From Thiomicrospira sp. WB1 (lineage in GTDB: Bacteria > Pseudomonadota > Gammaproteobacteria > Thiomicrospirales > Thiomicrospiraceae): a stretch of DNA of 64,000 bases. The translations under genes and the position numbers were made by a program. The first letter of the stretch is position 1, and every line of letters begins with the position of its first letter. The stretch lies in NCBI RefSeq assembly GCF_001507535.1, contig NZ_LQBN01000004.1, positions 62,001 to 126,000 of the forward strand, given 5' to 3'. The notes under the pieces are model-generated. The model worked only from the letters and a program-made list of their open reading frames with translations. It was not told where the DNA came from and did no database searches. Positions 1,158 through 58,102 of this stretch are shown here, one piece after another.

Positions 1158-3974
1158 ATGCTCGAAAACATCGTTGTTCGCGGCGCACGCACGCACAATC
1201 TCAAAGACATTGACGTGACCCTGCCCCGTGACAAACTGATTGTCATGACCGGTCTGTCAGGCTCAGGCAAATCCTCTCTGGCCTTTGATACCATCTATGC
1301 CGAGGGCCAGCGCCGTTACGTTGAATCGTTGTCCGCCTATGCCCGTCAGTTTTTGTCGGTCATGGAAAAGCCCGACATCGATCACATTGAAGGGCTGTCA
1401 CCGGCCATTTCGATCGAGCAGAAATCGACCTCTCACAACCCGCGCTCCACCGTGGGAACGGTCACGGAAATTTACGATTACCTGCGTCTGCTCTATGCCC
1501 GCGCCGGGACGCCACGCTGTCCGACGCATGGCTGTGATCTGGAAGCCCAGACCGTGAGCCAGATGGTTGACCATACCCTCACCCTGCCCGAAGGGACCAA
1601 ATGCCTGTTGATCGCCCCGGTCATTCGAGGCAAAAAAGGCACGCATCAGAACCTGCTGGACGAGCTGCAGGCACAAGGCTTTATCCGCGCCCGCATCGAC
1701 GGCAAACTGCAGGAACTGGGGGGCGGCATTGAGCTGGACAAAAATCAGGAACACGACATTGAAGTGGTCATCGATCGCTTTAAAATCCGGGCCGACCTGA
1801 AGCAGCGCCTGGCCGAATCGTTTGAAACCGCCCTGCATCTGGCAGACGGACTGGCGCAAGTGGTGCCCATGTCCGACGAAGACGACTTTGAGCTGCTGTT
1901 TTCGGATCGCTTCTCCTGCCCGCACTGTGGCTATGCCGTCACCGAGCTGGAACCTCGCATCTTTTCGTTCAACAACCCACGTGGCGCTTGCCCGACCTGT
2001 GATGGGCTGGGCATGAAACAGACCTTTGATCCGGACCGCGTGGTCATTCACCCGGAGTTGAGTCTGGCTGGAGGCGCCATACGCGGCTGGGATCGGCGAC
2101 ATAAGTACTATTACGATCTACTCAAAGCCGTCGCCGATTTCTATGAATTTGACATGGAAACGCCCTGGGAAGACTTGAGCAAAAAACAGCAGGACCTCAT
2201 TCTATGGGGGTCTGGTCGCAAAAAACTGCCTTTGCCCCATGGGCGTTACAGTGCCACCCGTCGATTTGAAGGCGTGATCCCGAACATGGAACGCCGCTAT
2301 CTGGAAACCGAGAGCAAAGCCGTGCGCGACGAGCTGGAACGTTATCGCGTGTCCCATGTTTGCCAGGCCTGCCATGGCACACGTCTTAACGAAGCGGCCC
2401 GCAATGTGTTTGTGGCTGAGCGAACCCTGCCGTCCTTGACCGAACTGCCGGTGGGCGAATTGCACGACTTTTTTGAAACGCTGGCGCTTGAAGGCAGCAA
2501 AGGCAAAATTGCCGAAAAAATTATCAAGGAAATCCACGAGCGCCTGTCGTTTCTGGTCAATGTCGGTCTCAACTACCTCAATCTCAACCGCAGTGCGGAC
2601 ACCCTGTCAGGTGGCGAAGCCCAGCGTATCCGCCTGGCCAGCCAGATCGGTGCCGGCCTGGTCGGCGTTATGTACGTGCTGGATGAGCCGTCCATCGGGC
2701 TGCATCAGCGCGACAACGATCGTTTGCTCAACACACTGACTCGTCTGCGCGATCTGGGCAACACGGTGATTGTGGTAGAACACGACGAAGACGCCATCCG
2801 GGCTGCGGATTATGTGCTCGACATCGGCCCCGGAGCGGGGCTGCACGGCGGCAAAATCATGGCCAGCGGCACGCCGGAAGAAATCATGGCCTCGCCCGCT
2901 TCGTTGACCGGCCAATACCTGAGCGGTCAACGTGCCATTGCCATTCCCGAAAAACGACTGACGCCTTCTGACAAGTTTCTGGTGATTGAAGGCGCGCACG
3001 GCAACAACCTCAAAGAGGTGACACTGGAACTGCCAGCCGGCCTTTTGACCTGCGTGACCGGAGTGTCCGGGTCCGGCAAATCCACTCTGATCAACGAGAC
3101 CCTGTCCAAAATTTCGGCCAACGCCCTGAACAAGGCGCAGCTTCAGCCTGCGCCCTACCGCAAAGTGCACGGACTGGAACACTTTGACAAGGCGGTCAAC
3201 ATTGACCAAAGCCCCATTGGGCGCACGCCGCGTTCCAACCCGGCCACTTACACGGGCCTGTTTACCCCCATCCGGGAGTTGTTGGCGGCCACGCCCGAAG
3301 CACGCACCCGCGGCTATACCCCGGGACGGTTCAGCTTCAATGTCAAAGGCGGCCGCTGTGAAGCCTGTCAGGGGGATGGGGTAATCAAGGTGGAAATGCA
3401 CTTTCTGCCCGATGTGTTTGTCACCTGTGATGTCTGTCAGGGCGCACGCTACAACCGTGAAACCCTTCAGGTTGAATACAAGGGCCACAACATTCACGAC
3501 ATTCTGGAAATGACGGTGGAAGATGCACGGGCTTTTTTCGACGCCATTCCCATGCTGGCACGCAAACTGCAAACGCTGATGGACGTAGGCCTGGGTTACA
3601 TCAAACTCGGTCAAAGTGCCACTACCCTCTCCGGCGGCGAAGCACAACGTGTCAAACTCGCACGAGAGCTGTCCAAGCGCGATACGGGCAGCACCTTGTA
3701 CATTCTGGATGAGCCGACCACCGGACTGCATTTTCACGACATTGACCTGCTGCTGAAAGTGATCCGTCACCTCCGGGATCAGGGCAACACCGTCGTGGTA
3801 ATCGAACACAATCTGGATGTGATCAAAACGGCTGACTGGCTGATCGACCTGGGCCCGGAAGGTGGTTCCGGTGGGGGCCACATCATTGCCACCGGCACAC
3901 CGGAGACCGTCGCAGACACCCCGGGGTCTCATACCGGTCATTATCTGAAACCATTGCTGGCCCCTTCAAAATGA
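1158..3974 (+). CDS. uvrA: UvrABC excinuclease subunit A
   Basis: This is the damage-recognition ATPase of nucleotide excision repair, which acts as a dimer and loads UvrB at lesions. The 938 residues match the usual length (about 940). Two ABC modules are visible. The first has Walker [10 protein letters not shown] (about residue 32) and signature LSGGEAQR (about 485). The second has Walker [10 protein letters not shown] (about 637) and signature LSGGEAQR (about 825). The family's zinc-binding cysteine pairs appear at CPHC/CPTC (about 253-280) and CEAC/CDVC (about 733-760). The frame is complete and no key residue is missing. Its TGA overlaps the ATG of the DUF2927 gene (ATGA), so the two are probably translationally coupled. 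Confidence 0.98.
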
Positions 3975-4771
3975 CCAGGCCTGGTCAAATTGCCAGCTTA
4001 TCGGCGGCGGTGATGTTCGGGGTGATTGGACAGTGCTGGGCCCAGCCAACCAACAGCCATCTGTTGAACTGGCAGGACCCGGCCTACATTGAATCGTCAT
4101 TTTATAAGATCGCATTGAACAATGAATACCAGAAAGGTGGACAGCCTTTACGCCGCTGGGAAAGCCCTATTCGCTATCACATACAGTATGATGACCTGCC
4201 CCCCAACGCAATGGTCAATGAGCTGGTTTCGACGCATTTTCAGCACTTAGCTGACATCACGGGCGTGAGCATTCGTCCGGCGAATGATGTCGCCCCCAAT
4301 TTTCGGATCGTTCTAACCCGGGACGAAACCTACCAGCAAGCCATCCAACGTTATACACCTGCTAGCACGCCCAATCTACACCTGGACAGCAACTGCATGG
4401 CCAACATTCAGGTCAGCGCAACCGGTCAGATTACTCAGGCACAGGTTGTGATTCCACTGGATCATGCAATGAGCCGCGGGCTGCTCCCCGCTTGCGTGGT
4501 CGAAGAGCTTACCCAGTCGATGGGCCTGCCCAATGATGCCGATGATGTCACCCCCAGCATTGCCAATGATGCCAGTCGCCTGGATCTGCTGACCGGGCTC
4601 GACTATGTCTTTCTGAAGTTGCTCTATCACCCGCAATTGCATGCAGGCATGAAACGGGCCGACCTGCAACAAAAGATCCCGGGCATTCTGCACGAATTTG
4701 CTCAGACAAAACTGATTCAGCGCGCTGCCCACACCGTCAATCAATCAGGACTTTATCGCCTGCTTTATTGA
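3971..4771 (+). CDS. DUF2927 domain-containing secreted protein
   Basis: The 266-residue protein begins with a likely signal peptide (residues 1-24, ending QCWA). It carries the DUF2927 hallmark [15 protein letters not shown] (175-189), a protease-like EELTQ segment, followed by a conserved [18 protein letters not shown] region. The function of DUF2927 is not established; the family has been compared to zinc-metalloprotease folds, but the classical HExxH is absent here. The ATG overlaps the uvrA stop, and codons 2-5 lie in a copy of the repeated palindrome (3973-3986), so the palindrome makes up the 5' end of the gene. A start at the internal ATG (residue 15) would destroy the signal peptide and is less likely. 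The 3' end overlaps tcdA by seven bases, tail to tail. Confidence 0.72.
3973..3986. repeat. Palindromic element copy 1 (GACCAGGCCTGGTC)
   Basis: A 14-bp perfect palindrome at the start of the DUF2927 gene, encoding residues 2-5 (TRPG) of that protein, with its first G shared with the start codon. It is one of eight copies of the core ACCAGGCCTGGT in the window. Confidence 0.85.
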
Positions 4772-8775: not shown

Positions 8776-9132
8776 TTAACGCTTGATAGGTTTTTTAGGA
8801 CCCTTGCGAGTACGCGCGTTGTTTTTAGTACGCTGACCTCTCAAAGGCAAGCTGCGACGATGACGGATACCGCGATAGCAGCCCATATCCATCAGACGCT
8901 TAATGTTCATGGTCACTTCACGGCGCAAATCGCCTTCAATTCGATAATTTGTGACTTCTGAACGAATGGCTTCGAGTTGTTCTTCTGTTAGTTCTCGAAC
9001 TTTGGTAGTGGGTGCAATTTTAACGGCCTCGCAGATTTTCTGCGAAGTTGTCTGCCCTACACCGTAGATCGATCTCAATCCAATAACGATGTGTTTATTT
9101 ACTGGAATGTTTACGCCGGCAATACGTGCCAT
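8776..9132 (-). CDS. rpsM: 30S ribosomal protein S13
   Basis: S13 is a head protein of the small subunit that contacts the P-site tRNA and the B1 intersubunit bridge. The 118 residues start [16 protein letters not shown], carry the helix-two-turns-helix segment [15 protein letters not shown], and end with the basic tail [18 protein letters not shown]. It has GGAG upstream of the ATG. It is the first gene of the alpha operon here: the gene normally placed before it, rpmJ, is missing between secY and rpsM. Confidence 0.98.
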
Positions 9133-9171
9133 GTTGCGCTCCTTGACTATCCATCTACCGAAAAACGAGCG

Positions 9172-9200
9172 ATTATACTCATTTCAGGAATTAATTACCA
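9172..9200 (-). promoter_or_regulatory. Possible alpha-operon promoter with overlapping dyad
   Basis: On the minus strand a perfect TATAAT (9172-9177) lies 17 bases downstream of a weak -35, TGGTAA (9195-9200). The -35 is half of a perfect dyad TTACCA-G-TGGTAA (9195-9207). The site is about 40 bases before the rpsM start and lies in the secY-rpsM gap. Confidence 0.45.
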
Positions 9201-27200: not shown

Positions 27201-28491
27201 GGTGAAGCGTCGGTGCCCGGTTCAGTAATACCGGATGTTCACGAATGACTTCGTCCAGCACATCCCAGACTTCCGGCAAGCTTTGCTCTACCATTTTCTT
27301 AGCGGCTTTAATCGTGGACGCCATGCCACGCTTTTGCAGTTTGCTGAAAATGAAAGGCTTAAACAGCTCCAGCGCCATTTTCTTTGGCAGGCCACACTGA
27401 TGCAGACGCAGTGACGGGCCAACCACGATCACGGAACGGCCGGAATAATCGACACGCTTACCGAGCAGGTTCTGACGGAAACGTCCCTGCTTGCCTTTGA
27501 TCATATCCGCCAGCGATTTCAACTGTCGTTTATTGGTGCCGGTGACGGCACGACCGCGACGGCCGTTATCCAACAGCGAATCCACAGATTCCTGCAACAT
27601 GCGTTTTTCGTTGCGCACGATGATGTCGGGCGCCATCAGATCCAGCAATCGCTTAAGACGATTGTTTCGATTGATCACACGACGATACAGGTCGTTCAGG
27701 TCGGACGTTGCGAAACGGCCACCATCCAGCGGCACCAGTGGACGCAACTCTGGCGGCAGCACAGGCAGCACGTCCAGAATCATCCATTCAGGCTTGTTCC
27801 CGGACTGCAAAAAAGAATCGATCAGCTTTAGGCGCTTGGAAATTTTCTTCTGCTTGGTTTCAGAATTGGTCGCGTCCATCTGCTCGCGCAGCTCAGCCGC
27901 ATCGGCTTCCAGATCAATCGACTGAAGCATTTTCTTGATCGCTTCCGCGCCCATTTGTGCTTCAAACTCGTCACCGTACTCATCCAGCGCATCGAGGTAC
28001 TCTTCCTCGCTCAGCAACTGCCAAGGTTCAAGCGGCGTCAGGCCTGGGTCGACCACCATAAAAGCTTCAAAATACAGGACGGCTTCGATTTCTTTGAGCG
28101 TCATATCCAAAATCAGGCCAATGCGAGATGGCAATGATTTCAGAAACCAGATGTGCGCGACCGAGGTCGCCAGGTCGATGTGCCCCATGCGTTCACGACG
28201 CACTTTTGACTGAGTGACCTCAACCCCACATTTTTCACAGATGACACCACGGTGTTTCAAACGCTTGTATTTGCCACACAAACATTCAAAGTCACGAATG
28301 GGGCCAAAGATCTTGGCGCAGAACAAACCATCACGCTCCGGCTTGAAGGTACGGTAGTTGATGGTTTCCGGTTTTTTCACCTCGCCATACGACCAGGAAC
28401 GAATCTTCTCAGGTGAAGCAAGCGTGACTTTGATCGTATCGAAATCGTTCGATACATTCTGTTTTTTCAAAAATCCCAATAAATCTTTCAT
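24244..28491 (-). CDS. rpoC: DNA-directed RNA polymerase subunit beta'
   Basis: The beta' subunit holds the catalytic magnesium and the clamp. The 1415 residues include the first zinc site [20 protein letters not shown] (about 70-90), the catalytic loop [12 protein letters not shown] (about 458-470), and the second zinc site [19 protein letters not shown] (about 885-905). It is slightly longer than E. coli (1407), with an acidic tail rich in Glu and Ala. Its ATG overlaps the rpoB stop as TAATG, so translation is coupled. Confidence 0.99.
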
Positions 28492-31400
28492 TATTCTTGC
28501 TCCAACTCAATATCAATCCCCAAGGCACGAATTTCTTTGCGCAATACGCTGAAGGATTCAGGAATACCAGGTTCCATGTATTCGTTGCCATCGACAATAT
28601 TTTTGTACATGCGTGTACGACCGGCGAGGTCATCGGATTTGACCGTCAGCATTTCCTGCAGAGTAAACGCCGCACCATAGGCTTCCAGAGCCCAGACTTC
28701 CATCTCACCGAAACGCTGACCGCCAAACTGAGCTTTACCGCCCAATGGCTGCTGTGTCACCAGACTGTAAGGTCCGGTCGAACGGGCGTGCATCTTGTCA
28801 TCAACCAGGTGGTTCAGCTTGAGGTAATACATATAACCGACGGTCACAGGTCGATCAAACGCTTCACCACTGATGCCGTCGAACAAGGTCATCTGACCGG
28901 ATTCAGGCAAGTCTGCCAAGCGCAGCAATGCTTTAATCTGATCTTCCGACGCACCATCGAAAACCGGTGATGCCATAGGCACACCTTTTCTCAAATTGCC
29001 CGCCAACTCCATGATTTCATCGTCGGTGAGCTGGGCAAAATCCACATTCTGCCCTTGCGTCTCGTTATAGATCTGATGCAGGAAGCCGCGCAATGTTTTG
29101 ATGTCTTCCTGCTGCTTGAGCATGGCGTCAATTTTTTCGCCCAAACCGGCGGCGGCCAACCCAAGATGCGTCTCCAGAATCTGACCCACGTTCATCCGCG
29201 AAGGAACCCCCAGAGGGTTCAGACAGATGTCCACCGGGCGCCCGGTTTCATCAAACGGCATGTCCTCGATCGGACAGATACGCGAAATAACACCTTTGTT
29301 CCCGTGGCGGCCTGCCATTTTGTCACCCGGCTGGATGCGACGCTTCACGGCCACATACACCTTGACCATTTTGGACACACCGGGCTGCAGGTCATCGCCT
29401 TGAGTGAGTTTCTTTTTCTTCTCATCAAACGCGGCATTCAGTTCGGCTTTTTTATCCGTCAGTTGCTGCTCAAACGCTTCCAGCTGAGCCGCCAAGGCAT
29501 CGTCTTTGACGTTGGCTTTGAGCCACTGATCCCGTTCGGTCTTTTTCAACCAGGCCTGGTTAATTTTGGTGCCATCCACCAGTGTCTGACCGTTCAACAA
29601 CTCTTCCACACGCGCATGAATGTCTTCAAACAGAATGCGGTACTGTTCATCGATGTCCTTACGCACGGCCTGCAACTCATCTTCCTGAATCGACAGCGCG
29701 CGCGCATCTTTCTTCACACCTTCACGGGTAAAGACCTGAACGTCAATAACGGTCCCTTCCACGCCTTTACCAACGCGCAGAGACGTATCTTTCACGTCGG
29801 AGGCTTTTTCACCGAAAATGGCACGCAGAAGCTTTTCTTCCGGTGTCAGCTGGGTTTCGCCTTTTGGCGTCACTTTACCGACCAGAATGTCGCCTTGCTT
29901 GACCTCTGCGCCCACATAAACGATCCCGGACTCATCCAGACGTGATAAAGCGGCTTCGCCCACATTCGGGATATCGGACGTCACTTCCTCCGGCCCCAGT
30001 TTGGTGTCACGCGCCAGACAGGTCAGTTCTTCAATGTGAATACTGGTGTAGCGGTCATCGCGCACCACTTTTTCAGACACCAAAATGGAATCTTCGAAGT
30101 TGTAGCCGTTCCACGGCATAAAGGCGATGCGCATGTTCTGACCAATTGCCAGCTCACCCAGATCCGTTGAAGGCCCATCGGCCAAGACATCACCACGGGC
30201 AACCGCATCACCGGCTTTCACAATCGGCTTCTGGTTGATACAGGTATTCTGGTTGGAGCGCTGGTATTTCACCAGGTTATAAATATCCACCCCGGTTTCG
30301 CCTTCGGCGATTTCATCGTTATTGGCGCGCACCACAATCCGTGCAGCGTCGGATGAAATGATCTCACCGCCACGGCGCGCCACCACCGTGACCCCCGAGT
30401 CGATCGCAACGGTTTTTTCAATCCCGGTGCCGACCAATGGCTTGTCGGCACGCAATGTTGGTACCGCCTGACGCTGCATGTTCGAGCCCATCAAGGCACG
30501 GTTGGCATCATCGTGTTCCAGGAACGGAATCAGAGCCGCTGCCACCGAAACGATCTGCTTGGGCGAGACGTCCATGTAGTTGATTTCGTTGGACGGTGAC
30601 AGAGTAAACTCGTTCTGGTGACGACATGAAATCATTTCGTCCACGAACTTCCCGTCTTTGTCCAACTGGGCACTGGCCTGAGCGATCACATACTGGGATT
30701 CGTCAATGGCCGACACGTATTCCACTTCTTCGGTGACCTGACCATTAACGACCTTGCGATAAGGGGTTTCCAGGAAGCCATATTCATTGGTTTTGGCATA
30801 AATCGCCAAGGTGTTGATCAGGCCGATGTTCGGCCCTTCCGGAGTTTCGATCGGGCAGACACGACCATAGTGAGTCGGGTGCACGTCACGCACCTCAAAA
30901 CCGGCACGTTCACGCGTCAACCCGCCTGGCCCCAATGCCGAAACGCGACGTTTATGCGTCACTTCCGACAGAGGGTTGACCTGGTCCATAAATTGTGACA
31001 ACTGGCTGGAACCAAAGAACTCTTTGATTGCCGCCGAGACCGGCTTGGCATTGATCAGATCCTGAGGCAACAGGTTGTCGGTTTCTGCCTGATTCAAGCG
31101 TTCCTTGACCGCACGTTCAACTCGGACCAACCCGACACGGAACGCATTTTCGGCCATTTCACCCACGGCACGGATACGACGGTTACCCAGTGTATCGATG
31201 TCATCCAGTGTGCTCAGACCATTACGGATATTGATCAATTCCTTGACCACATCAATCACATCATTGTTTTCCAGAACCAGCGCACCGTCATTTTTCTTGC
31301 GGCCCAAACGACGGTTCAGTTTCATCCGACCCACAGACGATAGGTCATAACGAGCTTCATCAAAGAACAAGCTCTGGAATAATGCCTCGGAGGACTCTTG

Positions 31401-32552
31401 TGTTGGTGGCTCACCCGGACGCATCATGCGGTAAATCTCAATCTGCGCATCCAGCGGTGAAGCCGTGGTGTCCAGATTCAGGGTATCGGAAATGTAAGAA
31501 CCGTTTTCCAGATCATCCACAAATAGACAACGGAAAGAGAAATTCTTCATTCCTTTCAGAGTTGCCAGCAAATCGGGCTGGATCATTTCATTCGCACGTG
31601 CAACCAGCTCACCGGTTTCGTCGTTCATGATCCCGGAAGACAAAATGCGACCGATCATGAAATCATCAGGCACTTCAACCTGCTCCACACCGGCTTCCCG
31701 AATTTTCTTCACATCGCGTGCGGTGATTTTTTTGCCTTCTTTGACCACCACATCCCCATTGGACGCAGCCAGATCGAACGGCGCGTTCTGCCCTTTCAGC
31801 TTGCCTGCATCAATGTCATGCAAGACCTTACCGTCTTTGATATGGAAATTCAGGTGATCAAAGAAGGTGTCCAGGATTTCCTCGTTGGAATATCCCATTG
31901 CTCTGAGCAGGATAGAGACGGGGAGCTTACGACGACGGTCAATGCGGACATACAGACAGTCGTTATGATCGAACTCGAAATCCAACCAGGAACCGCGATA
32001 AGGAATGATCCGTGCATTAAACAATGTCTTACCGGATGAGTGAGATTTCCCTTTATCACTGTCGAAAATCACACCAGGAGAGCGGTGCAACTGAGTCACA
32101 ATCACTCGCTCGGTCCCGTTGATCACAAAGGTACCGTTTTCGGTCATCAGCGGGACATCACCAAGATAGACCTCTTGCTCTTTCACGTCTTTTACCGGAC
32201 GCTTACCCGCCGGGGCATCTTTGTCGAACAACACCAGGCGCATTTTCACACGCAGAGGTGACGAATAGGTGACCCCACGCTGTTTACACTCTTTGACATC
32301 AAATTCAGGCTGACCCATGGTATAACTAACATATTCCAGGTCAGCGGTGCCTGCCACACCATGAATCGGAAACACAGATGAAAAAGCGGCGTGCAAGCCC
32401 ATCATCTGACGTTGAACGGGCTTTTTCTCCTGTTGCAGAAATTCGTTGAACGATTTTTTCTGCAGGGAAAGCAGGTAAGGCACATCCAGAATGGATGGCT
32501 GTGTGGCAAAATCCTTGCGGATGCGTTTCTTTTCAGTCAAAGAATAGGACAT
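28491..32552 (-). CDS. rpoB: DNA-directed RNA polymerase subunit beta
   Basis: The beta subunit forms half of the active-site cleft and the rifampicin pocket. The 1353 residues have gammaproteobacterial architecture. The rifampicin region reads [17 protein letters not shown], then [13 protein letters not shown]. The residues equivalent to D516, H526 and S531 are wild type, while N518 of E. coli is valine. The gene follows a terminator-like attenuator and a leader hairpin after rplL. One copy of the window's repeated palindrome lies in the frame (29548-29561), encoding NQAW. Confidence 0.99.
29548..29561. repeat. Palindromic element copy 2 (AACCAGGCCTGGTT), inside rpoB
   Basis: A 14-bp perfect palindrome with the core ACCAGGCCTGGT. 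On the coding strand it reads as NQAW within rpoB. This copy could be chance within a conserved gene. Confidence 0.8.
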
Positions 32553-38278: not shown

Positions 38279-39028
38279 ATGCACACCGTCTGTCAGCGCC
38301 AGAACTTGAAAATATTGCACAACGATGCCGCCTTGGTTGCCATTCACAAACCAGCGGGGTTGCTGGTGCACCGAACGCACTTGGATCGGGAAACCCGTGA
38401 TTTCGCATTGCAAATGACCCGTGACGCCATTGGCGCGCCGGTCTGGCCGGTTCATCGCCTCGACAAGGCCACCTCCGGCTTACTGGTGTTCGCCAAATCG
38501 CCTGCCATCGCTCGCGCGCTGAACCAAGCTTTTACCAGCCGAGAGGTACACAAACACTATCTCGCCATCTGTCGTGGCTGGCTGGCCGAATCCGGTGAAA
38601 TCGACCGACCGCTCAAAGCCGACAACGCGAGTCAACCCAAACCGGCACTGACCCACTACCAAACCCTGGCAACGGCACTGGTCGACCACCCAATGGGCCG
38701 GTTTGAACAACAACGCTACAGCCTAGTCTCCCTGACGCCTGTCACCGGGCGCAAACACCAGCTTCGCCGCCACCTGAACCACATCGGACACCCGATCATT
38801 GGGGATGTGGCGCATGGTGATCGTCACCACAATCATTTTTTCTACCAATGGCACGGGCATCATCGCTTGTATCTTGCCGCCACCAAGCTGAAGCTGTCAC
38901 ACCCAGAGACCGGTCAACCACTCTCTTTGCGATCCCCGCTTGAGCCCAGCTTTCAGTCAACGCTGACGACGCTCGACTGGCGGCCCCTGCAGCCCCTGCC
39001 CACCTCCTTTTTTGACCAGGCCTGGTGA
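38279..39028 (+). CDS. truC: tRNA pseudouridine(65) synthase TruC-like
   Basis: The 249-residue protein belongs to the RluA/TruC family: the motif HRLDKATSG holds the catalytic aspartate (Asp62), and the family's VTGRKHQLRRHLNHIGHPIIGD is present, together with HHRLYLAAT typical of TruC. TruC converts U65 of tRNA-Ile(1) and tRNA-Asp to pseudouridine in E. coli. The start is uncertain: the ATG at 38279 has no ribosome-binding site and directly follows a -10 element, while a TTG at 38306 fits the family N-terminus. The last codons (DQAW, then TGA) lie within a palindromic element. Confidence 0.82.
   Translation: MHTVCQRQNLKILHNDAALVAIHKPAGLLVHRTHLDRETRDFALQMTRDAIGAPVWPVHRLDKATSGLLVFAKSPAIARALNQAFTSREVHKHYLAICRGWLAESGEIDRPLKADNASQPKPALTHYQTLATALVDHPMGRFEQQRYSLVSLTPVTGRKHQLRRHLNHIGHPIIGDVAHGDRHHNHFFYQWHGHHRLYLAATKLKLSHPETGQPLSLRSPLEPSFQSTLTTLDWRPLQPLPTSFFDQAW
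39015..39026. repeat. Palindromic element copy 3, end of truC and -35 region of bioA
   Basis: ACCAGGCCTGGT encodes the last residues (DQAW) of TruC. Its centre lies about 41 bases before the predicted bioA start of transcription, where class II activators bind. Confidence 0.8.
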
Positions 39029-39091: not shown

Positions 39092-40390
39092 ATGACTGAC
39101 TGGCAATCCTTACAAGCCTTCGACCGCGATCACATCTGGCACCCGTACGCCCCCATGCCCAACCCCCAATCACCGCTGGCCGTTCAATCGACCCAGGGCA
39201 GCCGGATCACGCTGGCCGACGGGCGCACGTTGATTGACGGCATGAGCTCCTGGTGGGCTGCCATACATGGTTATAACCACTCCGACATCGTCGCAGCCAT
39301 GCACCACCAGATTGAGGTCATGCCTCACATTATGTTCGGCGGCCTGACCCATCAGCCCGCCATCGATCTGGCGCAGAAACTGGTATCGCTCACGCCTGAA
39401 GGCTTGGAAAAAGTCTTTTTTGTTGACTCCGGTTCGGTGGCGATGGAAGTCGCCATCAAAATGGCCCTGCAATACCAGATTAGCCGTGGCAAACCCTCAA
39501 AGAGCCGACTGCTCAGCATCAAAGGCGGCTATCATGGTGACACCATTGCCACCATGGCACTGTGTGACCCGGACAACGGCATGCACACCACCTTTGGCCC
39601 ACTGCTGCCTCAGCACTTTTTTGCGCCCCGACCCAATCCCGGCATGATCAACACCGATGACAGCGACATCGAAGCACTGGAAGCCATATTGGCCACCCAT
39701 CATGACGAAATTGCCGCGCTCACACTGGAACCCATCATTCAGGGCGCAGGCGGCATGCGCCCGTATCGACCGAGCTACCTGAAACAGGCGCGCGCCCTGT
39801 GTGATCACTATAACGTCCTATTGATTGCGGATGAAATCGCGACCGGCTTCGGACGCACCGGCGAGTTGTTTGGCTGCAACTGGGCCGGCATCACACCCGA
39901 CATCATGGCGCTGGGCAAAACCCTGACCGGCGGACACATTACCCTTGCCGCGACGCTGGCAACCGAAACGGTGAGTCGCACCATCAGTCAGGGTGATCCC
40001 GGGTTGCTCATGCACGGCCCGACCTACATGGGCAATCCACTGGCCTGCGCCACCGCCAGCGCCAACATCGATGTGCTACTCAACAGTCCCTGGCAGGCCA
40101 ACATCGCCCGCATCGAACACCATTTCCAATCCCAGCTGACCCCCCTCAAGTCGCATGAGGGCGTAAAAGATGTGCGCATCCTGGGCGCCATTGCTGCGGT
40201 GGAACTTGACGCGGGCCACCTCGGCCCGCGCATTCAGGACCTGGCCGTCGAGCAGGGTGTCTGGCTGCGCCCCTTCGGTGCCTTGATCTATACCATGCCC
40301 GCCTACAATATGCCTGACCCCAGCTTGAGCCAGCTGACCGACGGCATGGTCGCCGCCATCACTCAAGCATTAGACGAGGCCCAGTCATGA
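39092..40390 (+). CDS. bioA: Adenosylmethionine-8-amino-7-oxononanoate aminotransferase
   Basis: BioA makes 7,8-diaminopelargonate from KAPA in biotin synthesis, with SAM as amino donor and PLP as cofactor. The 432 residues begin with the family's WHPYAPM segment and include GMSSWWAAIHGYNH and the PLP-lysine region ALGKTLTGGHI (Lys about 275). The start has GAGAGG six bases upstream. The stop overlaps the next gene's start (ATGA), so they form a unit. bioD lies at 49.2 kb; bioBFC are not in the window. Confidence 0.96.
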   Translation: MTDWQSLQAFDRDHIWHPYAPMPNPQSPLAVQSTQGSRITLADGRTLIDGMSSWWAAIHGYNHSDIVAAMHHQIEVMPHIMFGGLTHQPAIDLAQKLVSLTPEGLEKVFFVDSGSVAMEVAIKMALQYQISRGKPSKSRLLSIKGGYHGDTIATMALCDPDNGMHTTFGPLLPQHFFAPRPNPGMINTDDSDIEALEAILATHHDEIAALTLEPIIQGAGGMRPYRPSYLKQARALCDHYNVLLIADEIATGFGRTGELFGCNWAGITPDIMALGKTLTGGHITLAATLATETVSRTISQGDPGLLMHGPTYMGNPLACATASANIDVLLNSPWQANIARIEHHFQSQLTPLKSHEGVKDVRILGAIAAVELDAGHLGPRIQDLAVEQGVWLRPFGALIYTMPAYNMPDPSLSQLTDGMVAAITQALDEAQS

Positions 40391-41490
40391 CACAGCCCCT
40401 GCTTCCGGAAGACGCCAATGCGTTTGGCGATTTTTTGGATCTGCTCAAAGCCCTGATTCGCCAACCCAGTGTGGTCGGCGCCGAGCATGCGTTTTTTCGT
40501 GTCCTGCAACGAGAACTGGAAGAACGTGGCGCTCAGGTTACCTGGTATGAAGGCTTATTGGTTGCCCAAGGCAACCAGCCCGACCGCTGCCATTTTTCCG
40601 CGCACATTGATCGCCACGGCCTGGTCTGCACCGGACCCAATGAATTTCAGTTCGCCGCCTTCGTCGCGGGCAAACGCACCAACCTGCTGGGGACCGATGT
40701 GGCCAATGAGCTAAAAGAAACCCTGATGAACCGCTTCGACGCCACCCCCGTTCTGGCCTATGAACCCTGGTCCGGTGCCTATCGCGGCGCTGGGCTGATC
40801 GACAACGCCTACATCTGCGAATACCGTAACAACCTGATTTTTGAAGTGGAAGGACTGGAGCACCTGGTTGCGGGCACCCCCGTGGGCTTTTCCGATCGCC
40901 TGCGCGTGGATCAGGGCATGCTGTCCGGGCAGCTCGACAACGTGCTCACAGCCGCAATGCTGGTGCATCTTTTCAGCCTGGGGTATGAAGGCACGGCGTT
41001 CTTCACCGCCGAAGAGGAATCGGGCGGCAGTTGGCGTTATCTGTTGGAATGGTACCGCCGTTTCGGCAAGCCCACCAACCAACTTTATGTGGTCGACACC
41101 AGCCCTTACCGCAACCGCGAAGAAGCCGACAAGCAATGGATCACATTGCGCAATCGGGACGAGCACGCCGAATTCAACCCTCAAACCACCGGACAGGTGG
41201 CGCAACTGTGTCACCAGCATGCCATTTCATTTGGCTTCAAGGACCACTACATTGAACAGCTCAACCAGCAGCGCTTAGGGTCCAACCGCCAGGCCCAAAG
41301 TCTGGGGCGAACCGAACTGGGACGCATCCTGGCCAACGCCGACGGCCTGGTGGACGGCACCACCATTCAGATTCCCACCACTGGCTATCACACCATGAAT
41401 GAAACGGCCTCCGTACAAGCCTGTCAGGCGTTCCTGACCCTGCTTCGAGCGATTGAGGCTGATCCAGCCGAACCGGCAACGCAGACCTAA
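40387..41490 (+). CDS. M42-like zinc aminopeptidase
   Basis: The 367-residue protein has all five metal ligands and the catalytic glutamate expected of M42/M20 peptidases: His73 and Asp75 (SAHIDRHG), Asp184 (GQLDN), Glu209-Glu210 (TAEEESGG), Asp237 (VVDTS) and His335 (GYHTMNE). It should be a cytoplasmic dizinc aminopeptidase or amidohydrolase. It overlaps bioA by four bases, which implies coupled translation, yet no role in biotin synthesis is known. The gene ends at a 32-bp perfect palindrome. Confidence 0.75.
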   Translation: MTQPLLPEDANAFGDFLDLLKALIRQPSVVGAEHAFFRVLQRELEERGAQVTWYEGLLVAQGNQPDRCHFSAHIDRHGLVCTGPNEFQFAAFVAGKRTNLLGTDVANELKETLMNRFDATPVLAYEPWSGAYRGAGLIDNAYICEYRNNLIFEVEGLEHLVAGTPVGFSDRLRVDQGMLSGQLDNVLTAAMLVHLFSLGYEGTAFFTAEEESGGSWRYLLEWYRRFGKPTNQLYVVDTSPYRNREEADKQWITLRNRDEHAEFNPQTTGQVAQLCHQHAISFGFKDHYIEQLNQQRLGSNRQAQSLGRTELGRILANADGLVDGTTIQIPTTGYHTMNETASVQACQAFLTLLRAIEADPAEPATQT

Positions 41491-41517
41491 AACTGACCAG
41501 GCCTGGTCAGTTTTAGG
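41486..41517. terminator. 32-bp perfect palindrome, probable bidirectional terminator (element copy 4)
   Basis: The 12-bp core with matched flanks forms a perfect 32-bp palindrome (CCTAAAACTGACCAGG and its complement) between the convergent peptidase and OsmC genes. Its ends encode the last codons of both genes, and the TTTT runs on each side fit a two-way terminator. Confidence 0.75.
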
Positions 41518-41929
41518 ATTTTGGCGAGTAAATCCGATAATCGTGCGTCAACTCCACGCTGTTTTCCAGCATTTTGGAAACGGAGCAATATTTTTCCGCC
41601 GAGAGGTTCACGGCGCGGGCGACTTTTTTCTCGTTCAGGTCATCGCCATAGACGTGAAAACGCACATGAATTTTGGTAAAGACTTTGGGAATGCTCTCGG
41701 CGCGCTCGCTGATCAGTTCCACCTCACAGTCGGTCACGGCCTGTTTGCTTTTTTGCAGCATCATCATCACATCGATGCTGGTACAACCGCCCAGTCCCAG
41801 CAACACCATTTCCATCGGCCGGGGGCCCTGATTTTCGCCGCCGACTTCGGGCGCCGCGTCCATCACCACATCATGACCGCTGTCGGTGTGCCCACAAAAC
41901 TGCATGTTTTTCTGCCAAGAGATTTTCAT
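41513..41929 (-). CDS. OsmC family peroxiredoxin-like protein
   Basis: The 138 residues carry the two redox cysteines of OsmC/Ohr proteins: Cys49 in GLGGCTSIDV and Cys115 in AEKYCSVSKML. Members reduce organic hydroperoxides; this one resembles the short OsmC (YhfA-like) group. It is transcribed leftward after trpC with a 37-base gap and no terminator seen, so it may share the trp transcript. The stop lies in the convergent palindrome. Confidence 0.85.
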   Translation of the reverse strand: MKISWQKNMQFCGHTDSGHDVVMDAAPEVGGENQGPRPMEMVLLGLGGCTSIDVMMMLQKSKQAVTDCEVELISERAESIPKVFTKIHVRFHVYGDDLNEKKVARAVNLSAEKYCSVSKMLENSVELTHDYRIYSPKS

Positions 41930-44489: not shown

Positions 44490-46019
44490 TCAGCTCGGGC
44501 GCGATGACGAATCATGGGGATGACGGGTCTGCAAGCCCCGGTTGACGAAAGCGGCGGCTTTGAAAATCGCTCGCCCCTTGTTCAGGGTTTCATCCCATTC
44601 GGATTGCGGATCGGAATCGGCCACCACACCAGCACCTGCCTGTACAAACAGACGACCGTCTTTGATTACCGCGGTGCGGATGGCGATGGCGGTGTCCATG
44701 TTGCCGTGCCAGCCCAGGTAGCCAACCGCCCCCGCATAGACCCCGCGTTTGACCGGTTCCAGTTCATTGATGATTTCCATGGCACGGATCTTGGGCGCGC
44801 CGGACACGGTGCCCGCCGGGAAGGTGGCGCGCAGCACATCCATGGCCGACAAACCGTCTTTCACCCGACCATCGACATTGGACACAATGTGCATCACATG
44901 CGAATAACGCTCCACCACCATCTTTTCGGTCAGCTCAACACTGCCGGTTTGGGCAATGCGTCCGACGTCATTGCGACCCAGATCAATCAACATCAAGTGC
45001 TCGGCCCGCTCTTTGGGATCGGCCAGCAGATCCGCTTCCATCTCGCGATCCTGCTGCGGCGTCTGACCACGACGTCGGGTGCCGGCAATCGGCCGCACAG
45101 TGACCTTGCCCGCTTCCAGACGCACCAGAATCTCAGGCGAAGAACCCACGACATGAAAATCCCCCAAATCCAGAAAAAACATATAGGGCGACGGATTCAA
45201 ATAACGCAATGCCCGATACAGAGCCAGAGGCGGATGATCAAACGAGGCTGACATCTGCTGGGAGATCACCACCTGCATGGCGTCGCCCGCCAGAATGTAC
45301 TCCTTGATTTGGGCGGCGGCGTCTTTGAAGGCCGCTTCACCAAAACTGGAGACAAAATCCGACTCCTGCAATTCCGGGGCCGCCGCCATCGGCTCCGATG
45401 GCGGCAGAGGGGCATGAATCCGGGCGGCAATCTCATCCAGGCGTGTTTGTGCCTTTGACCAGGCCTGGTCGGTTTTGGCATCGGCATGCACTATCACATG
45501 CACCTGGCCGCTGAGGTTGTCAAACACCACCAATTCCGTGGAGACCATCATCACGATGTCCGGTGCCCCAATGTCATCCTGCCTCGGTGTGGTGCCCTGC
45601 AAACGCGGTTCGACGTATTCAATGCTGTCGTAACCGAAATACCCGACCAAACCACCGGTAAACACGGGCAAACCGGTTTGTTGAGGGACATTAAATCGTG
45701 CCTGAAACGCTTCCAGCCAGGCCAGCGGGTCCTGCGTGGCCTGCTGTTCGACCAGGGTTTCTTCGCCCTCGGCGGAGCGCTCGGTCACCGAGACCACTGA
45801 GCCCGTGACACTGACCCGCTGACGGCACGGCAAGCCGATGATGGAATAACGTCCCCACTGGTCTCCGCCCTGAACCGATTCCAGCAGGTAGGTATAAGGG
45901 GCGTTGGCCACTTTGTGGTACACGCTCAGCGGGGTGTCGTAATCCGACAGAATAGTGCGCATCACCGCGACCTTGTCATAGCCCTCGGCGGCCAGGCGTT
46001 CAAATTGGGTCTGATCCAT
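44490..46019 (-). CDS. trpE: Anthranilate synthase component I
   Basis: TrpE converts chorismate and ammonia to anthranilate. From the ATG at 46019 the protein has 509 residues; an ATG two codons upstream (46025) is too close to its ribosome-binding site. The chorismate-binding domain carries the segments [38 protein letters not shown] and RSVEITQT-free tail. The tryptophan-feedback [18 protein letters not shown] lies near the N-terminus. Codons for TDQAW fall in a palindromic element (45457-45470). It follows gph by 28 bases with no room for a leader-peptide attenuator. Confidence 0.96.
45457..45470. repeat. Palindromic element copy 5, inside trpE
   Basis: GACCAGGCCTGGTC is a perfect 14-bp palindrome in frame within trpE, encoding DQAW, the same residues as the truC end and nearly the same as in rpoB. 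Confidence 0.82.
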
Positions 46020-46053
46020 AGTCATTTCCAGCGTTTAAAAGGCAACCGTCAAA

Positions 46054-47684: not shown

Positions 47685-47696
47685 ACCAGGCCTGGT
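47685..47696. repeat. Palindromic element copy 6, between divergent rpe and psiE
   Basis: ACCAGGCCTGGT lies in the 224-base intergenic region with TTTTT on one side and AAAAA on the other. It is about 100 bases upstream of the psiE-like start. The region otherwise holds the rpe -10 and no other clear signal. Confidence 0.82.
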
Positions 47697-54131: not shown

Positions 54132-55139
<1,008 letters not shown>

Positions 55140-55154
55140 TTACTCCTGAAATTC

Positions 55155-55166
55155 ACCAGGCCTGGT
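55155..55166. repeat. Palindromic element copy 7, upstream of gap
   Basis: ACCAGGCCTGGT lies in the tkt-gap gap, about 19 bases upstream of the gap ATG and just before its ribosome-binding site. Confidence 0.82.
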
Positions 55167-58072: not shown

Positions 58073-58102
58073 TGCTTTTTGACCAGGCCTGGTCAAAAAG
58101 CA
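58073..58102. terminator. 30-bp perfect palindrome, probable bidirectional terminator (element copy 8)
   Basis: TGCTTTTTGACCAGG and its complement form a perfect 30-bp palindrome around the 12-bp core, between the convergent rhodanese and RND genes. Poly-T flanks on both strands suit two-way termination. Confidence 0.78.

Follow-up and report, generated by a model that had tools for sequence, protein, structure and literature searches.

An iterated palindromic word with related dialects in Thiomicrospira and its relatives, a candidate DNA uptake sequence that is extended into hairpins at some gene ends

Introduction

What is the role of a perfect palindrome that takes in the ends of two convergent genes? 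The question arises at positions 41486-41517 of a 64,000-nucleotide stretch of the Thiomicrospira sp. WB1 genome (contig NZ_LQBN01000004.1, positions 62,001 to 126,000), hereafter the window. An earlier note on this DNA had paired the palindrome with a second one of the same core at 58073-58102, described poly-T flanks on each strand of both, and suggested that the element had been adopted as a two-way terminator. Here, we describe the two palindromes, the word at their centre, and its distribution and dialects in related genomes, and we weigh what such a word might be for.

Results

Both palindromes proved to be perfect. The first (CCTAAAACTGACCAGGCCTGGTCAGTTTTAGG, 32 bp, 41486-41517) holds the 12-mer ACCAGGCCTGGT at 41496-41507. 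Both convergent stop codons lie within it, that of a plus-strand gene without a Pfam or NCBIfam match (40387-41490) in the left arm and that of a minus-strand OsmC-family gene (41513-41929) in the right arm. An A-tract lies 5' and a T-tract 3' of the core, which is true of both strands. On either strand the sequence folds into a 14-bp stem with a four-base loop and U's within and 3' of the 3' arm, and the best 8 nt after the core contain four (plus) and five (minus) T's. Like an intrinsic terminator, this is a hairpin with an A-tract and a U-tract, which makes the site a plausible bidirectional terminator.

The second palindrome (TGCTTTTTGACCAGGCCTGGTCAAAAAGCA, 30 bp, 58073-58102, 12-mer at 58082-58093) shares the core and also sits at a convergent junction, between the ends of a rhodanese-domain gene (58046) and an RND permease gene (58110). 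Its polarity is reversed, the core being preceded by T's and followed by A's on each strand, so the poly-T flanks attributed to both palindromes exist at 41486-41517 only. The palindrome is followed by TTCAACC on the plus strand and GAAAACA on the minus strand, and its hairpin thus lacks a U-tract in either direction. As it nevertheless folds well, it may protect transcript 3' ends rather than terminate transcription. Neither palindrome was in the terminator-like list. Comparison with the same junctions in the nearest relative, G005, showed the core kept at both and the arms changed. At 41486-41517 the 12-mer is identical and the arms are partly changed, while at 58073-58102 the core is retained (12/12), the inner flanks agree at 2/10 and 6/10 positions, and the arm polarity differs.

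The 12-mer is present in 400 copies in the 2,279,450-base genome, compared to none for a control with its letters reversed. Within the window, 12 sites match the core with at most three mismatches, compared to a mean of 2.46 for shuffles, none of which (n = 100) reached 12. A 464-kb sample, consisting of the window and 20 spaced stretches and 86% coding, contained 78 copies, and the next commonest 12-nt palindrome occurred three times. Sites with one mismatch were likewise in excess (26 versus a mean of 1.6 and a maximum of 7 for 20 shuffled palindromes), 16 of them differing at the outermost base, while those with two or three mismatches were not (32 versus 27.3 and 249 versus 261.4). No sequence shared beyond the core and its A/T tracts was apparent among the copies listed. 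Both polarities of these A or T runs occur in the window's genome and in G005, and A-core-T predominates in the G002 and G008 samples.

When genes were called by a simple script instead of a curated annotation, 33 of the 78 sampled copies were genic, 43 intergenic and two at an edge. The genic copies, which include those in rpoB and trpE, use two reading frames (22 and 11 copies) and never the third. In the window, copies lie inside the RNA polymerase beta subunit gene (29549..29560 in 28491-32552, minus strand), at the 3' end of a pseudouridine synthase gene (39015..39026 in 38279-39028, plus strand) and inside trpE (45458..45469 in 44490-46025, minus strand). The copy at 3974..3985 was classed as edge, yet it lies just past the ATG of a DUF2927 gene (3971-4771), overlapping the end of a UvrA-like gene (1158-3974). 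Besides the T-core-A palindrome at 58073-58102 and the A-core-T palindrome at 41486-41517, two intergenic copies were found, one (47685..47696) between divergent genes of the ribulose-phosphate epimerase (minus strand) and PsiE (plus strand) families and one (55155..55166) beside a glyceraldehyde-3-phosphate dehydrogenase gene (54132-55136, minus strand). Elsewhere in the window, positions 9100-9197 on the minus strand match the Rfam alpha-operon ribosome binding site just above its gathering score (38.8 versus 38).

All six window copies that could be aligned to G005 keep the whole 12-mer, namely those at 29549, 45458, 47685, 55155 and the two palindromes. For the other two of the eight, at 3974..3985 and 39015..39026, no alignment to G005 was obtained. 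As background, 16% of all aligned 12-mers are identical between the two genomes, and 28% of those classed as intergenic. In the reverse comparison, ten copies in 80 kb of G005 comprised six that are shared, one aligned to word-free sequence and three that did not align. The trpE copy has no counterpart at the corresponding aligned position of more distant relatives.

We next asked how often a copy is extended into a hairpin, defined as a perfect palindromic extension of at least 6 bp per arm in the 464-kb sample. This was the case for ten of the 45 non-genic copies and none of the 33 genic ones (p = 0.004). Six of the ten are at convergent junctions, three at tandem and none at divergent ones, with one unassigned. 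Since hairpin extension is confined to DNA outside genes, the data support co-option of the word at gene ends. In one sampled copy (L052:13693), a T7 run follows a GC-clamped stem. Among contexts with a gene end at most 150 nt upstream (n = 43), the downstream side was T-rich in 14 and A-rich in 16. Enrichment at convergent junctions (10/60 versus 27/327, p = 0.054) is by itself only suggestive. Adoption of the element, as the earlier note had proposed, fits a genome-wide word that is extended only outside genes. Termination as its general role does not fit, given the 33 genic copies and the mixed polarity, and would at most be a secondary use by a minority of copies.

To place the word taxonomically, we surveyed 55 genomes. 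Six of ten congeners carry 93 to 515 copies of the 12-mer and four carry none; thirteen of 23 other family members have 2 to 660 and ten have none; the 21 genomes from other families have 0 or 1. Among 62 genomes of the order, 27, all from one family, have at least 100 copies of the 10-mer core CCAGGCCTGG, five have 15 to 44 and 30 have fewer than 10. The core was found once in the 68 of 80 named loci regarded as lying outside the group (996,005 bases; one of them, Sulfurivirga, may belong to it).

The four congeners without the palindrome instead contain the related, non-palindromic words AAAATCTRCCAGGYTGGG or AAAAATCGCCAGGGGTGG: AAAATCTRCCAGGCTGGG in G004, AAAATCTRCCAGGTTGGG in G010 and G001, and AAAAATCGCCAGGGGTGG in G007 (6 in 40 kb). 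These dialects were read from samples of 100 kb each (G004, G010) or 40 kb each (G001, G007), and whole-genome counts refer to CCAGGYTGGG only. This word occurs 331 times in G004, 371 times in G010 and 403 times in G001, and none of the other eight genomes of the genus has more than 15 copies. In nine of 11 stretches from the four congeners the words are found in both orientations, and in two in one only; the genome totals of CCAGGYTGGG per orientation are 196 versus 207, 143 versus 188 and 169 versus 202. A strand-biased motif of the Chi or KOPS type was rejected, as orientation is not consistently biased within stretches. A single-gene tree (trpE, 21 genomes), weak at several of its deep forks, groups the four non-palindromic species into one clade (91/93, a little below the level that the tool marks as strong support), next to the NCCAGGCCTGGN clade.

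Further forms occur in the family. G031 contains ACCGGCCGGT 24 times in 60 kb, 14 of these as TACCGGCCGGTA, while AACAGGCCTGTT and AGCAGGCCTGCT are favoured in G021 and G025 (about 20 kb each). No word was found in 80 kb of G012 and 40 kb of G018. A Thiotrichales MAG locus (L146) has CAGGCCTG 12 times in 21 kb and no CCAGGCCTGG, and this is probably another dialect. In G016 (L074, L090-L092), a AAAAGTCGGGGACC-type word occurs six times in 80 kb and may represent either a further word or a terminator present in several copies.

Different dialects are also found at the same genomic place. In gapped local alignments, an intergenic place near trpE carries a palindromic word in G005, G008, G006, G003, G002, G009 and G013, a non-palindromic word in G004, G010 and G001, and none in the window's genome. 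At a coding site, in a pyridoxal-dependent decarboxylase gene (Pfam), the word lies in frame, carriers and non-carriers align without a gap, and the encoded residues are altered. Genomes with the word read ELPGLV (G008, G006, G003, G009, G002, G025, G021), G004 reads ELPSLVDF and carries its own dialect, and those without it read ELPVLV or ELPVIV (G010, G001, G033, G013). G025 and G021 are closer to G008 in the decarboxylase (93.7% and 88.9% identity) than in trpE (79.4% and 78.6%). They may therefore owe this gene (in L067 and L068) to transfer between genera and not be independent carriers.

Among the first 100 of the 400 places listed, there is a copy-free gap from C1:209,049 to 292,354, which has a chance of about 2 × 10−4 for 400 random sites. 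The 80 kb sampled within it (L175-L178, C1:210001-290000) hold no copy and have a GC content of 0.446 to 0.487; the other stretches, of which one overlaps the gap, range from 0.499 to 0.579. Genes for a TrwC relaxase, type II secretion, PhoX and an RTX-repeat protein are found there. The region is probably an acquired island.

As for the competence machinery, ComEC is encoded in 32 of 34 family genomes (not in G023 and G027) and in most of the class. Matches to the pilin-type N_methyl domain PF07963 number two or three in the four non-palindromic congeners and six to ten in seven palindromic genomes. In the window's genome and G005 (L206, L207), one cluster contains several pilin-like genes that resemble each other (GFTLVEIAI..LVI starts), a higher number than in the other five genomes read. 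A pilin as receptor candidate was considered from the gene order of this one cluster in seven genomes, and none was linked to the word. As the difference follows one clade and may partly reflect a secretion-type cluster, we do not draw a receptor from it.

Discussion

Dedicated uptake words have been described for Neisseriaceae and Pasteurellaceae (PMC7811141, PMC13020248). The DNA uptake sequences (DUS) of Neisseriaceae are described as having dialects that follow phylogeny around a shared core, with some members lacking any (PMC3630211), and an atypical distribution in integrative elements (PMC7371117). Reuse of DUS and of the uptake signal sequences (USS) of Pasteurellaceae in terminators has been reported (PMC13020248). 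USS are not palindromic, come in two dialects and have a predicted minor-pilin receptor (PMC12616744). The receptors of uptake words are type IV minor pilins, ComP and, as a prediction, ComN.

We suggest, with a probability of just under 60%, that ACCAGGCCTGGT and its A/T tracts are the local dialect of a family-wide, iterated DNA uptake sequence. In natural transformation, the word would be a tag of self bound by a surface receptor. Recombination biased by uptake would enrich copies and maintain them in place, a change of the receptor would shift the dialect between species, and some non-genic copies would have grown into hairpins at which transcript 3' ends are formed or protected. We take uptake sequences as the best mechanism because the dialects, the absence from the island, the lack of strand bias, the genic copies and the differences in place match what is described for the DUS of Neisseriaceae (PMC3630211, PMC7371117, PMC1939737). 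As in a DUS or USS, the word is over-represented both in and between genes (400 copies, control 0; 33 of 78 sampled ones genic) and related species have related dialects, different ones standing at orthologous sites without an insertion at the coding site examined. Orientation is mixed along the chromosome, within 20-kb stretches as well, which can be judged from the non-palindromic dialects only, and depletion in recently acquired DNA is seen on one sampled island, the 80 kb of lower GC with the TrwC relaxase. The intact state of six out of six alignable copies in G005, the excess of one-mismatch sites and the presence of ComEC in 32 of 34 family genomes also agree with an uptake role, although ComEC is not specific, being found in most of the class.

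Other observations fit an uptake word less well. Two- and three-mismatch sites are not in excess, and G012 and G018 have ComEC and yet no word in the 80 and 40 kb sampled. The word is palindromic in most carriers, whereas known uptake words are described as non-palindromic (PMC1939737), and 400 copies per 2.28 Mb is a lower density than the about 1900 in N. meningitidis (PMC3630211). Palindromic form and lower density are real departures from the known uptake words. The word resembles the DUS of Neisseriaceae, of which a genome has hundreds to thousands of copies, in its hundreds of copies, related dialects, members without it, island depletion and plausible use in terminators; it differs in belonging to another class of bacteria and in these two departures. 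The USS of Pasteurellaceae have an A/T-rich flank beside a short core, as found here, and two dialects, but they are non-palindromic and their core letters are unrelated. In Campylobacter jejuni, a methylated palindromic site is used for DNA discrimination. We give even odds to the word being a third, independent DUS family of the Thiomicrospira-Thiomicrorhabdus group, palindromic in most carriers and non-palindromic in one clade. A literature search found no report pairing 'uptake sequence' with Thiomicrospira or Thiomicrorhabdus within the collection searched, the 12-mer ACCAGGCCTGGT was absent among the matches listed in a search by letters, and the accessible text of a Hydrogenovibrio genome paper (PMC6501319) contains neither 'uptake sequence' nor 'competence'.

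The main rival is a site for an intracellular protein involved in chromosome organisation or segregation, comparable to SlmA, Noc or MatP, with a specificity that drifted between species. A palindromic core with symmetric A/T tracts would suit a dimeric protein, and the copies prefer intergenic DNA and are spread over the sampled chromosome. We consider this unlikely in view of the hundreds of copies, as sites of this type are not known to be so numerous, and of the non-palindromic forms in one clade, which occur in both orientations within stretches. Those same forms are unfit for a palindromic methylation site, as would be needed if the word, like HIP1 of cyanobacteria, arose or persisted through an orphan DNA methyltransferase together with mismatch repair. 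HIP1 and the alternate HIPs are also highly iterated palindromes with alternate words in relatives, but are described as accompanied by cognate methyltransferases (PMC4390886). Of the two methyltransferase families searched, neither tracks the word: PF00145 is found neither in the window's genome nor in G005 and other carriers, and PF01555 is absent from G005, G006, G008, G009, G013 and G019 and represented in the window's genome by a sub-cut-off match interrupted by a stop. A HIP1-like origin thus appears improbable to us.

Similarly doubtful is that the word is primarily a transcription terminator or 3'-end hairpin. The anatomy at 41486-41517 and the extended palindromes, which are non-genic only and in six of ten cases at convergent junctions, speak for it. 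Yet 35 of the 45 non-genic copies have no extension of at least 6 bp, A-rich downstream sides are about as frequent as T-rich ones, the reversed 58073-58102 palindrome is without a U-tract, and dialects elsewhere are non-palindromic. We reject termination as the main role on the genic copies and the polarity, and retain it as a secondary one. Finally, a small mobile element inserting its own copies could leave many near-identical copies in and out of genes. We rejected it, leaving it hardly any probability, as the decarboxylase coding site aligns gap-free between genomes with and without the word; the copies listed also have no apparent common sequence beyond the core and A/T tracts.

Should the uptake sequence reading fail, there would still be a genome-wide word to explain, whose dialects occupy the same sites. 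If it is true, uptake tags arise repeatedly, with a further family and many dialects, palindromic and not, and a receptor able to read a symmetric site would be implied. The different dialects at the same genomic sites would then be a natural record of changes in uptake specificity. Comparison across the group would help to find receptors and to tell whether the tags persist through selection or through biased uptake, and these sulfur-oxidising bacteria might become accessible to transformation.
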